NCBI RefSeq assembly: GCF_019799905.1
Contig: NZ_JABGCI010000009.1
Coordinates: forward strand, 1-64,000
Direction of reading: 5' to 3'
Source: Trujillonella endophytica
GTDB lineage: Bacteria > Actinomycetota > Actinomycetes > Mycobacteriales > Geodermatophilaceae
DNA: 64,000 nucleotides
A program made the position numbers and the translations under genes. Below the pieces are notes generated by a model, which worked only from the letters and a program-made list of their open reading frames with translations, searched no databases and was not told the origin of the DNA. Every line of letters begins with the position of its first letter. Position 1 is the first letter of the stretch. Of the stretch, positions 7,623 through 12,858 are shown in pieces.

Positions 7623-8587
7623 GCCGGCCGCTTCCGCGCCCGGGACCGCGGCCGCGCGGGCCGGACCGGGGGCAGCTCGACGCCCTCGACGACGCGGTTG
7701 CGGACGGTGCCGATGCCCTCGACGGTCATCTCCACGACGTCGCCGGGCCGCAGCGGGGGAGGAGCGGCCTCGCCGCGGACGCCCCACAGCTCGGCCAGGC
7801 AGCCGCCGTTGCCGCAGGTGCCCGAGCCGAGCACGTCCCCGGCCCGCACGACGGTGCCGCGGGAGGCGTAGGAGACGAGCTCCTCGAACGGCCAGCCCAT
7901 GTTGGAGAGCAGGTCCTGGCCGATCCCGGTGCCGTTGACCGACACCCGCATGTCCAGGGCCAGGAAGCCGTCGTCGTCCCGGTACGGCTCGAGCTCGTCG
8001 GCGGTGACCAGCCACGGGCCCAGGGTGGTGGCGGAGTCCTTGCCCTTGGCCGGGCCGAGGTTCACCTTCATCTCCCGCGCCTGCAGGTCGCGGGCGGACC
8101 AGTCGTTGAGCACCGTGTAGCCGAAGACGTGGTCGTGGGCCTGCTCGGGGGTGAGCGAGGCGCCGTCCCTCCCGACGACGACGGCGACCTCGAGTTCGAA
8201 GTCGAACCGCTGCGAGCCCGGGGGCACCGCGACGTCGTCGTGCGCGCCGATCAGCGCGTAGGGGTTGGTGAAGTAGAAGGTCGGCGCCTGGTACCACTCC
8301 GGAACCACCCCGCCGACGCCGTCGATGCTCTTGCGGACGCCCTCGACGTGCTCCTCGAACGCGACGAAGTCCCGCACGGTCGGCGCCTCCAGCGGCGGCA
8401 GCAGCCGGACTGAGTCGACGGGTACCGCGGGGCCCTCCAGCGCCGCGGCGCCGGCCTCGAGCGCGGCGGGGAGCCCCGCGCGGACGAGGTCGAGCACCGT
8501 CGCGCGCGCGGGGAGCTCGTGCAGCCCGGCGTCGGAGACCACGCCGGCGGAGACGACCCCGCCGGACTCCCAGGTGGCGAACCGCAT
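7619..8587 (-). CDS. Fumarylacetoacetate hydrolase (FAH) family protein
   Basis: This 322-residue protein has the FAH fold; the metal ligands are Glu131 and Glu133 in FDFELEVAVVVGRDG and Asp162 in GYTVLNDWSARDLQ. GKDSATTLGPWLVT and GSGTCGNGG are the usual later motifs. Family members cleave C-C bonds of acyl-pyruvates, hydrate 2-hydroxypentadienoates or isomerise/decarboxylate ring-cleavage products. Its ATG at 8587 shares a base with the stop of the extradiol dioxygenase, so it very likely acts on the product of that enzyme. Hydratase, decarboxylase and hydrolase roles cannot be told apart from sequence alone. Confidence 0.92.
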   Translation of the reverse strand: MRFATWESGGVVSAGVVSDAGLHELPARATVLDLVRAGLPAALEAGAAALEGPAVPVDSVRLLPPLEAPTVRDFVAFEEHVEGVRKSIDGVGGVVPEWYQAPTFYFTNPYALIGAHDDVAVPPGSQRFDFELEVAVVVGRDGASLTPEQAHDHVFGYTVLNDWSARDLQAREMKVNLGPAKGKDSATTLGPWLVTADELEPYRDDDGFLALDMRVSVNGTGIGQDLLSNMGWPFEELVSYASRGTVVRAGDVLGSGTCGNGGCLAELWGVRGEAAPPPLRPGDVVEMTVEGIGTVRNRVVEGVELPPVRPARPRSRARKRPA

Positions 8588-9525
8588 CAGACCGGCGGGG
8601 CCACGAACAGGCCCTTGTCCGGGTCGTTGAACGAGCGCGAGGCGACGAACTCGTTCATGGCGTTGGCGGTGCCCCACTGGTCGGAGACCTCGGGCCGGGT
8701 GAAGTCGTAGAGGTGCGGGTGCCAGGTGTCCTCGTCCAGCTGCTCCAGCTCGGTCGTGTACTCGACGGTGTTGCCGTGCGGGTCGAGGAAGTAGCTGAAG
8801 GTGTTGTTGCCGGCGAGGTGCCGGCCCGGGCCCCAGATCTTCTCGACGCCGGCACGCAGCAGCCGGCCGGTGCCGCGCATGTACTCGTCGATGCCGCGCA
8901 GCTCGAACGAGGCGTGGTGCAGCGAGGGGTGCGGGCAGCGGGCGATGGCCAGGCTGTGGTGCCAGGCGTTGGTCCGCAGGAACCACATCATGTGGCCCAT
9001 CCGCGGGTGCATGAGCGTGTCCGAGAGGGCGAAGCCCAGGTGCCGCTCGTAGAAGGCGACCGTCGCCTCGGGGTCGGCGGAGTTGAGAACGACGTGGGAG
9101 AGGCGGACGGGGATCGACTCGCCCTCCTCGACCGTGCGGTGCTCGCGCACGGCGACGTCCGAGCTGACCTCGACGGTGCGGCCCTCGTTGTCGAAGAAGC
9201 GGAACCCGTGGCCGCCGCCGGGGGTCTGCAGGGTGCCGGGCTCGGTGACCAGCTGGACGCCGTCGGCGGCCAGCTGCGCGGCGAGGGTGTCGACGTCCGC
9301 GGCGCTGCCTGCGCCGAAGGCGATCAGGTCGATCCGCTTGTCGGCGGACTCCCGCAGGCGGACGACGTACTGCTCGGGGGAGCCCTCGGCGGCGAGGAAG
9401 GAGAGGCCGGAGTCGGTGTGCTCCTCGCTCAGGCCCCACGTGCCGCCGAAGAACTCGCGCTGGGCGGCGAGGTCGGGCACGGCCAGGTCGACGTGCCGCA
9501 GGTGGGTGATCAGGCGCTGGGTCAT
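8587..9525 (-). CDS. Extradiol (catechol 2,3-dioxygenase-type) ring-cleavage dioxygenase
   Basis: A 312-residue type I extradiol dioxygenase made of two VOC domains (about residues 8-125 and 140-270). The Fe(II) facial triad is in the C-terminal domain: His144 (RLSHVVLN), His203 or 204 (LHHASFEL) and Glu256 (GNTVEYTTEL), at spacings close to those of BphC. It opens a catechol ring next to the two hydroxyls. It heads the coupled block dioxygenase-FAH-SDR-hydrolase. Its ATG at 9525 lies 24 bases downstream of a large palindrome, a likely control site. The phenolic substrate is unknown. Confidence 0.93.
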   Translation of the reverse strand: MTQRLITHLRHVDLAVPDLAAQREFFGGTWGLSEEHTDSGLSFLAAEGSPEQYVVRLRESADKRIDLIAFGAGSAADVDTLAAQLAADGVQLVTEPGTLQTPGGGHGFRFFDNEGRTVEVSSDVAVREHRTVEEGESIPVRLSHVVLNSADPEATVAFYERHLGFALSDTLMHPRMGHMMWFLRTNAWHHSLAIARCPHPSLHHASFELRGIDEYMRGTGRLLRAGVEKIWGPGRHLAGNNTFSYFLDPHGNTVEYTTELEQLDEDTWHPHLYDFTRPEVSDQWGTANAMNEFVASRSFNDPDKGLFVAPPV

Positions 9526-9548
9526 GGCAGGTCCTCGTTCGGTCTCGA

Positions 9549-9605
9549 CGAGATCTGCACAGTCGTCACCATCAGGCGCTGATGGCGTCGAGTGTGCAGA
9601 TCTCG
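9549..9605. promoter_or_regulatory. 57-bp nested palindrome between monooxygenase and dioxygenase genes
   Basis: Outer arms 9549-9561 (CGAGATCTGCACA) and 9593-9605 are exact reverse complements, and the inner dyad CCATCAGGCGCTGATGG (9569-9585) shares the same centre (9577). Counting the intervening bases, 24 of 28 paired positions match. It fills most of the 97-base gap. It could be a double operator, an attenuating RNA hairpin, or a copy of a dispersed palindromic repeat. Confidence 0.8.
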
Positions 9606-9622: not shown

Positions 9623-10753
9623 TCAGGCGGGCTGGCTGGTGAGGACGGCGATCGAGCGCATGAGGCCCGGGATGTCGCCCTGCACGTGGTCGAGCTGCCA
9701 CTGGGCGAGCTGGTTGGACGCCTCGACGACGGTCTTGGCGCGCTCGAACCGGCGCTCGGTGAAGGCGTCCCAGAGGTCCTGGTCGAGGACCTCGCGGCCG
9801 AGCAGCAGCTCGGTCAGCGCGTAGGCGTCCTCGAGGGCCTGCGCCCCGCCCTGGGCGATGGTCGGCGGGCAGGTGTGCGCGGCGTCGCCGATCAGCACGA
9901 CCCGGCCGCGGTTCCACGGCGCGGGCAGCACGTGGGTCTCGAACCAGGTGTAGTTCACCCGGCTCGGGTCGGTGAGCGTCTCGCGGATCTCGTCCCACGG
10001 GCCGTGGTAGGCCTGCGAGAGCTCCCGCATGACGGCCAGCTGCTCGGCGGGCGTCAGGGTGGAGCGGTCCTGGGCCGGCTCGACGATGTAGGCGTAGAGG
10101 CTGTCCTCGCCGGTGGGGCAGTAGCCGGCGATGAACGACGGCCCGCCGTAGTACAGGTCGGTGCGGGTGACGCTCGCCGGGCGGGGGCCGAACGCGCGCC
10201 AGATGCCCATCCCGATCGGCGTGGTGTCCAGCTCGATGCCCAGCGCGCGGCGGGTCCAGGAGCGCAGGCCGTCGGCGGCCACGACGAGGTCGTAGCGGCC
10301 GGTCGAGCCGTCGGAGAAGGTCACGTCCACGCCGGCGGCGTCCTGGTGCAGCTCGGTGTGCGTCGTCCCGAAGCGGACCTTGACACCGACCTCGGTGGCG
10401 CGGTCGACGAGGATCCGGGCGAGCTCCGGGCGCGGCATGCCCATCACCGCGGGCAGGTCCGGGCCGCCGGTCTTCGCGTCGGCGATCTCGGCGACGACGG
10501 TCCCGTGGGGATCGGGCGCGCGGATGCCGGTGGTGTCGAAGGCGTAGCCCGCGGCCTGCACCTGCTCCCAGACGCCGAGGGTGCGCAGCTCGCGCAGGGC
10601 GTTGCCCTGCAGCGTGATCCCGGAGCCGAGGGCCGTGGTCTCCGGCTTGATCTCGACGAGGTCGACGGCGACGCCGGCCTCCGCCAGACGGATCGCGGTG
10701 CCGGCACCGGCGAGGCCGGCACCCACCACGAGGACGGTGCTGACAGCGGGCAC
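9623..10753 (-). CDS. FAD-dependent aromatic monooxygenase (PHBH-type)
   Basis: A 376-residue group A flavin monooxygenase. Visible motifs: VLVVGAGLAGAGTAIRLAEAG (dinucleotide fold; Gly at 11, 13 and 16), DG motif AADGLRSWTRR (159-169) and GD motif LIGDAAHTCPP (287-297), the three signatures of p-hydroxybenzoate-hydroxylase-like enzymes that use NAD(P)H and O2 to hydroxylate phenols. I chose the GTG at 10753 because GAAGGAG lies just upstream; an in-frame GTG at 10780 is the alternative. It precedes the extradiol dioxygenase, so it likely makes the catechol that enzyme cleaves. Substrate unknown. Confidence 0.92.
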   Translation of the reverse strand: MPAVSTVLVVGAGLAGAGTAIRLAEAGVAVDLVEIKPETTALGSGITLQGNALRELRTLGVWEQVQAAGYAFDTTGIRAPDPHGTVVAEIADAKTGGPDLPAVMGMPRPELARILVDRATEVGVKVRFGTTHTELHQDAAGVDVTFSDGSTGRYDLVVAADGLRSWTRRALGIELDTTPIGMGIWRAFGPRPASVTRTDLYYGGPSFIAGYCPTGEDSLYAYIVEPAQDRSTLTPAEQLAVMRELSQAYHGPWDEIRETLTDPSRVNYTWFETHVLPAPWNRGRVVLIGDAAHTCPPTIAQGGAQALEDAYALTELLLGREVLDQDLWDAFTERRFERAKTVVEASNQLAQWQLDHVQGDIPGLMRSIAVLTSQPA

Positions 10754-10776
10754 GGGGGACTCCTTCGTCCGGTCCG

Positions 10777-11805
10777 TCACTTGACGGCGATCGGGTTGAC
10801 CGGGGCGCCGACGGCGCCGGTCACGGGCAGGGGGGCGGCGGTGAGGAAGAAGTCCCACCGGCCGTCGGCGGCGCAGTCGGCGGCGAGCGCGTCGAGGTCC
10901 CACATCTCGCCGAGGAAGAGGCCCATGTTGGGGATGGCGACCTGGTGCAGGGGCTGGAAGGCGACGTCGAACTCGTTGGGGCGCACCTCGAAGCCCCACG
11001 TGTCGGTGGCGATGCCGGCGATCTCGCTGGCGTGCAGCCAGTCCGCGGTGGTGAAGGACAGACCCGGCGCGGCGCCGCCGGCGTAGTCGCCCCAGCCGCG
11101 GCCCTCGGCGATGCCGCGGCGGGCCCGGGTGAGTTGACCGGTGCGGACCAGCAGGAGGTCACCGCGGCCCACCCGCGCGCTCTCGCCCTGGGCCGCGATG
11201 GTGGCCTCGAGGTGCTCGGCGGTGATGGCGAACCCGTCGGGCAGCTCGCCGCCGGTGCCGAGGGCCTCCCCGATGACCCGGCCGACGTCGAGCAGGACGC
11301 CGCGGCCGGCGATGTGCGCGGCGGCGGTCTCGATGCCGGTCACCGAGTCGCCCAGGCTGGTGACGACGTCGCCGGCACGGCGGCCGTTCCAGGCCATGCC
11401 GTGGTCGAAGATGTGGCCGAGGCCGTCCCACTGCGTCGAGCACTGCAGCGGCATCGCGACGACGTCGTCGGCGCCGCCGATGCCGTGCGGGAAGCCCTGG
11501 ATGCCGCGCTCGGCGTCGGTGCCGGTGTCGAGCATCGTGTGCACCGGGTTGGTGCGGCGGCGCCAGCCCTTCTGCGGGCCGTCCATGTCGAAGGCCTGCG
11601 ACAGCGAGAAGCTGACCCCCCGGCGGACCAGCCGGGCGCCCTCGACCCGCTTGTCCTCGCTGAGGAAGTTCAGGGTGCCGAGGACGTCGTCGGCACCCCA
11701 GCGGCCCCAGTTGGAGCAGCGCTTCGCCGCAGCGGCGATGGCGCCCTCGGGATCGCTGCGGTCGAGGGCCGGCACAGCGGCGGTGGTGTGGGTCACGTCG
11801 TCCAC
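10777..11805 (-). CDS. Cyclase-family (kynurenine formamidase-like) hydrolase
   Basis: About 342 residues, belonging to the cyclase/KynB-like metal hydrolases that open amide or ester-like bonds. The usual metal-binding HxGTHxDxxxH segment reads LQCSTQWDGLGHIFDHG here, so two His are replaced by Gln while the Asp and last His remain; the same variant is familiar from cyclase homologues in aromatic operons, from memory. GDLLLVRTGQ and PLHQVAIPNMG are conserved later motifs. Start uncertain: GTG 11805 (used), GTG 11796 or ATG 11856, the last overlapping the divergent LysR gene. It is first in the minus-strand cluster and is followed 23 bases later by the monooxygenase. Confidence 0.82.
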   Translation of the reverse strand: MDDVTHTTAAVPALDRSDPEGAIAAAAKRCSNWGRWGADDVLGTLNFLSEDKRVEGARLVRRGVSFSLSQAFDMDGPQKGWRRRTNPVHTMLDTGTDAERGIQGFPHGIGGADDVVAMPLQCSTQWDGLGHIFDHGMAWNGRRAGDVVTSLGDSVTGIETAAAHIAGRGVLLDVGRVIGEALGTGGELPDGFAITAEHLEATIAAQGESARVGRGDLLLVRTGQLTRARRGIAEGRGWGDYAGGAAPGLSFTTADWLHASEIAGIATDTWGFEVRPNEFDVAFQPLHQVAIPNMGLFLGEMWDLDALAADCAADGRWDFFLTAAPLPVTGAVGAPVNPIAVK

Positions 11806-12810: not shown

Positions 12811-12858
12811 CATCAGCACGGCTGATGCCGCACATCAGCGATCGGCCGTTCCCTGATG
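12811..12858. promoter_or_regulatory. Two CATCAG/CTGATG dyads upstream of the ABC importer
   Basis: CATCAG-CACGG-CTGATG (12811-12827) is a perfect 17-bp dyad that fits the T-N11-A LysR rule, and a second pair, CATCAG (12833-12838) and CTGATG (12853-12858), follows. They fill the 132-base gap between the LysR stop and the binding-protein start at 12935. The same half-sites occur in the palindrome at 9569-9585. Confidence 0.55.

Follow-up and report, generated by a model that had tools for sequence, protein, structure and literature searches.

A dispersed 57-bp palindrome of Trujillonella endophytica and the predicted DUF559 nuclease gene that two of its copies bracket

In REP/RAYT systems, a RAYT gene is flanked by two inverted palindromes and is accompanied by cognate solo copies (Nunvar et al. 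2010, PMC2817692). The CGTC-tagged REPs (Di Nocera et al. 2013, PMC3733652) consist of stems of 8 to 9 bp, a loop of 4 to 5 nt, and an unpaired tag. They lie between convergent or unidirectional genes, at distances below 20 bp from the 3' end, are occasionally intragenic, and are without a known dedicated transposase; for these repeats, the 2013 survey left open how REP-like repeats without RAYT originate and spread (PMC3733652). Vsr-like/DUF559 endonucleases, such as Caulobacter VsrA, have been described as acting in repair or in the manner of restriction enzymes (PMC12907096).

The palindrome compared here with these systems lies in a window (the whole stretch of DNA that was analyzed, 64,000 nucleotides) that includes the following features.

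9549 to 9605, no strand: palindromic repeat of type A, solo copy, 57 bp, one of 48 copies in the genome
9549 to 9561, plus strand: outer arm CGAGATCTGCACA, nearly invariant (4 substitutions in 96 arms)
9593 to 9605, minus strand: inverted copy of the outer arm
9562 to 9592, no strand: variable core of 31 bp, holding the inner dyad CCATCAGGCGCTGATGG (9569 to 9585)
9544 to 9548, plus strand: weak outward extension of the palindrome, CTCGA; the right side here is without extension
8587 to 9525, minus strand: downstream gene, extradiol-type dioxygenase (Glyoxalase/dioxygenase superfamily)
9623 to 10780, minus strand: upstream gene, FAD-dependent monooxygenase; the repeat starts 17 bp past its stop

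The 57-base palindrome described in the original prediction is real. Its arms (9549 to 9575 and 9579 to 9605) are 27 nt each with 3 nt between them and form 24 of 27 pairs (89% complementary), with perfect pairing in the outer 13 bp and in the inner CCATCAG/CTGATGG. As RNA of the gene strand, it has a folding energy of -43.9 kcal/mol (z = -7.7). In other copies, the outward extension often reads CCTCGA on the left and TCGAGG on the right. The distance to the dioxygenase start (9525), predicted as 24 bases, was measured as 23, and the gap to the monooxygenase stop codon (9623 to 9625), which the palindrome had been said to fill, is 17 bases. Because it lies between two co-directional minus-strand genes, that is, inside a gene series, the palindrome does not head the ring-cleavage operon as had been supposed. 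The proposed sharing with LysR-linked sites extends to the hexamers CATCAG/CTGATG and nothing more. Two further CATCAG...CTGATG dyads are found in the window at 12811 to 12827 and 12833 to 12858, just past the stop of the LysR gene (12802), which brings the number in the window to three, compared with an expectation of 0.03. Since the 13-bp arms are missing there, these dyads are not copies of the 57-bp repeat; they possibly form a separate operator.

The genome sequence of this organism (G000) is a draft of 5.35 Mb in 301 contigs. Within it, 44 copies match the pattern arm-N(20-36)-arm exactly, with a spacer of always exactly 31 (57 bp in total), versus 0 matches to the reversed control pattern. 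When mismatches are allowed there are 48 copies, and a covariance model likewise retrieves exactly 48 (96 strand hits). These numbers agree with the earlier remark that the dyad is far more than a single operator needs. The search of the genome and its relatives, suggested at the time as a check, confirmed the third option then given, a dispersed palindromic repeat family, and the orthologous operons, the other part of that check, are mostly without the element. No exact single arm stands outside a palindrome anywhere in the genome, indicating that no conventional IS bears these ends. The repeat is 57 bp and symmetric and has no unpaired GTAG or CGTC tag.

Variation among the 48 copies is confined in the arms to 4 substitutions in 96; in the core, positions 14, 16, 18, 20, 21, 26, and 28 are variable. 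Pairing across the halves is 91.7%, versus 91.6% in shuffles, and the covariation score is 0.053, versus 0.052, so that compensatory change between the half-sites of these copies shows no excess above shuffles. The half-sites thus vary independently, which argues against a conserved RNA hairpin and leaves the suggested control hairpin selected as RNA unsupported. An independent half-site consensus is as expected for DNA that a protein reads half by half, rather than for a selected RNA hairpin. At positions 20-21 of the two halves, the pair (AC, GG) occurs 15 times versus 7.3 expected and GG/GG occurs 0 times versus 4.1 expected; from these counts, the repeat may have a preferred asymmetry. In Rfam, the repeat matched nothing but microRNAs, by chance and with scores far under the gathering scores. 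A structured RNA family was therefore rejected, as there is neither covariation above shuffles nor an Rfam family above its gathering score.

At one locus (L103), which lies elsewhere in the genome than the window, two type-A copies 1 kb apart bracket a single gene for a protein of about 259 amino acids.

G000:C90:461886-462941: unit of about 1.06 kb, made up of palindrome, leader of about 160 bp, gene, and palindrome
G000:C90:462097-462873: DUF559 gene of the unit

The C terminus of the 259-residue protein matches DUF559 (PF04480, E value of 2e-7), as do all 13 of the 13 aligned family members, and the family profile matches a solved DUF559-type structure, 3hrl (E value of 3e-5). A match to the Vsr-type REase model MTES_1575 is below that model's cutoff. 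The N-terminal half is AbiEi-like. Residues D194, E205, and D207, of the D...E-x-D/H pattern, are invariant in the alignment and fit a PD-(D/E)XK site in this predicted nuclease. No relative of it was found in phages or viral_contigs, and viral_contigs contain no copy of the repeat; a phage origin was rejected on these grounds. The same genome has a second member of the DUF559 clade (L273, G000:C90:544567-545310), apparently decayed, which retains an upstream palindrome alone, and of another type (CGAGCGCGACGAACTCG).

Our protein search of 58 genomes identified, in the fetched set, 23 close family members (L243 to L265), all in Geodermatophilaceae. At all 23 genes there is a palindrome at a stereotyped position, centered at about -184 on the upstream side, at about +30 to +80 on the downstream side, or at both. 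Both are present at 18 genes, whereas matching palindromes on both sides were found at only 1 of 165 ordinary control genes, that one being the DUF559 gene itself. Arm types differ between genomes; upstream and downstream arms agree within a locus (0.92, versus 0.635 between loci; permutation p = 5e-5), and arm distance correlates with protein distance (Mantel r = 0.31, p = 0.004), a correlation that could arise from shared descent alone. Genome G001 has a pair of nuclease genes, whose palindromes are of type B in one case and of type C in the other (CGAGATCGGCGAT and CGAGTCCTGCGAA arms, respectively; size and core are the same as in type A), and both types are dispersed in that genome. Genome G003 has a type-A gene and, of type C, a broken relic and a single copy. 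In G004, which had given zero matches to the type-A model, arms taken from the nuclease locus retrieved five palindromes with paired arms, of which two flank the gene and the other three are solo; in three control genomes, the G004 arms gave no paired arms, only unpaired weak matches. More distant DUF559 homologs (37 to 47% identity) have matching pairs of other types at L271, L272, L274, L282, and L284. The palindromes around the homolog at L282 (G031:C327) are about 77 bp long with TTGGTGATCTTGACCTT arms and are larger than those of other genera. A DUF559 homolog on an Arthrobacter plasmid has its own palindromes on both sides, and at the homolog on a second Arthrobacter plasmid a 57-bp palindrome was seen on the upstream side alone; other parts of that strain's replicons contain similar sequences.

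The 1.06-kb unit lies between acetamidase and cytochrome P450 genes in G000 and G003 and is absent from G001 and G002, where the same junction is about 100 bp and holds a different, almost perfect palindrome of about 60 bp. This palindrome, with the sequence AGGCATAGGAAGCGATACCCACGTCCTG..., is found at L287 to L290 (G001 C27 at about 139650, G002 C18 at about 81400). The unit was thus gained or lost where another palindrome already stood or later came to stand. Neither a target-site duplication nor a clean empty site was found at the G001/G002 junction, given the different palindrome there.

The repeat family is present in 31 of the 58 Geodermatophilaceae genomes searched, a sample of relatives, and in 7 of 12 genera. 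At the window junction, 4 of the 36 loci compared in Geodermatophilaceae carry a family palindrome, and in most of the remaining ones the gap is short; as most related operons are without the palindrome, the operon can do without it. The gap upstream of the dioxygenase holds other GC-rich hairpins, for example AGGACCCTCC...GGAGGGCC, in other Geodermatophilaceae (L015, L028, L035), perhaps another dispersed repeat. In three congeneric genomes, 17 of 37 copies project to within 250 bp of a G000 copy, at least 1 of them on a short alignment. Such positional conservation of many copies across species indicates that movement is rare or old. At junctions L135/L188 and L108/L187, G000 has type A where G001 carries type B, and the convergent junctions L109 and L119 have unrelated palindromes in other genomes. 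Nine copies of the repeat are found in G002 without a close nuclease homolog. By our own count, the arms are about equally degraded in G002 (no gene) and G003 (gene present), compared with 4 substitutions in 96 arms in G000; faster decay of copies without the nuclease is thus unsupported.

We consider it probable that these elements form a REP/RAYT-like system with a DUF559 nuclease in place of RAYT, and that the window palindrome is a solo, nonautonomous copy. The RAYT-like layout (flanked gene, cognate solo copies, covariation of type) and the REP-like placement described below lead us to think that the DUF559 protein installs and overwrites palindromes, so that the nuclease would be what mobilizes them. 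The autonomous partner would be the unit of about 1.06 kb with the AbiEi-like/DUF559 gene. Its AbiEi-like N-terminal half may recognize one half-site of the cognate palindrome, the DUF559 nuclease would cut at the palindrome so recognized, and copying, repair, or gene conversion after the cut would install, replace, or homogenize palindromes, with insertions presumably tolerated or favored at gene ends. The copy in the ring-cleavage operon would then be carried as a passenger whose effect on the mRNA of the intergenic stretch is mild at most. The strongest points against this explanation are the positional conservation of many copies, the retention of copies in G002, which has no gene, and the lack of a clean empty site. 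More tentatively, and at somewhat below even odds in our estimate, the combination may be a widespread actinobacterial class of unit, mobile or homing, whose nuclease, joining AbiEi-HTH to DUF559, would spread and overwrite long gene-end palindromes, each nuclease lineage with its own palindrome specificity.

Placement was assessed with gene calls of our own, from a simple codon-usage gene caller, which assign 26 copies to convergent gaps, 20 to tandem gaps, 1 to an apparently divergent gap, and 1 to the inside of an ORF. Relative to the other gaps in the same loci, convergent gaps are enriched (p ~1e-10) and divergent gaps are depleted; most copies lie 20 bp or less from stop codons, with a median stop distance of 10 bp in convergent gaps. 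In tandem gaps, including that of the window copy, often only 14 to 45 bp are left before the next start. Pfam searches of the direct neighbors of 10 copies returned ordinary metabolic and regulatory genes, except for the DUF559 gene. The intragenic copy (L135:3001-3057, G000:C293:114051-114107) lies in frame within an ORF of 1,126 amino acids for a double ABC transporter, at the point where its two halves meet; in G001 and G002, this position is likewise occupied by palindromes.

This distribution raises the possibility that the repeats are bidirectional terminators or mRNA 3'-end hairpins, which end or protect convergent transcripts and are swapped for other hairpins in relatives. The strong hairpin, the convergent gaps (26 of 47 intergenic copies), and the different palindromes often present at orthologous junctions of relatives fit such a role, but the copies are followed by no T-tract (1.6 T per 10 nt) and match no terminator, the arm sequence is conserved and the pairing is not, one copy is inside the ABC-transporter ORF, and several, the window copy included, stand in an apparent operon at the short distances from the next start given above. 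The pairs of copies that surround DUF559 genes are also left unexplained. We regard this explanation as rather unlikely for the family, and a nuclease-borne origin would still allow single copies to act as terminators or at mRNA ends.

The dyad-symmetric half-sites, which vary independently and have invariant arms, together with the AbiEi-like N-terminal half of the nuclease, would also suit operators bound by the AbiEi-DUF559 protein or by some other protein that binds DNA as a dimer. In that case, the solo copies would act as sites of regulation or as roadblocks, and the copies adjacent to the gene would be autoregulatory. Such a regulon appears improbable, however, with copies at stop codons and only 1 of 47 in a divergent gap, with most loci having a second copy past the end of the nuclease gene, and with neighboring genes that have no evident common function. 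Classical REPs mobilized by a RAYT (Y1 tyrosine transposase) share the gene-end placement (PMC3733652) and the gene between two inverted palindromes (PMC2817692), but are very improbable here, as a PF01797 search for the Y1_Tnp domain had no match in G000 (5 of 14 control genomes were positive), the flanked gene is DUF559/Vsr-like, and the repeat is 57 bp, versus 20 to 40 bp, and lacks the GTAG tag. A role as operator or control hairpin for the ring-cleavage operon alone has in its favor the position 23 bp before the dioxygenase start but is hardly credible against 47 other copies at unrelated genes, the scarcity of the family palindrome in orthologous Geodermatophilaceae gaps (4 of 36, most others being short), and the location of copies at stop codons, not promoters; we therefore rejected it as the primary role, and the composite operator of the original prediction is unsupported.

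This case cautions against taking such palindromes for operators. Predicting the palindrome from the flanks of the gene and then seeking it genome-wide worked in the single fresh genome tried (G004), and the pairing offers a testable substrate for what is an orphan nuclease family in many actinobacterial genomes. We found no report in the open-access literature searched that ties DUF559 to flanking palindromes; an earlier description elsewhere is possible. The resemblance to Vsr-like/DUF559 endonucleases lies in the C-terminal domain of the partner. Like MITEs or solo IS ends, the repeats are short, nonautonomous, and dispersed, and their inverted ends match those of a larger unit, whereas here each end of the unit is a complete palindrome, no target duplication was seen, and no DDE transposase is involved. 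As in REP/RAYT systems, a nuclease-type gene lies between two inverted palindromes, cognate solo palindromes are dispersed, their types vary by genome and track the gene, and copies are extragenic, near stops, and avoid divergent gaps. The enzyme, however, is a DUF559/Vsr-like PD-(D/E)XK protein with an AbiEi-like domain instead of a transposase of the HUH/Y1 kind; the palindrome is symmetric, measures 57 bp, and has about 5 to 48 copies where counted instead of hundreds; and no BIME-type arrays were seen. With the CGTC REPs the repeats share a palindromic nature, the same gene-end placement, and an occasional intragenic copy, while differing in their 57-bp length with 27-nt arms and in having a nuclease partner; if true, the homing-unit reading would give REP-like repeats a transposase-free route of origin and replacement.
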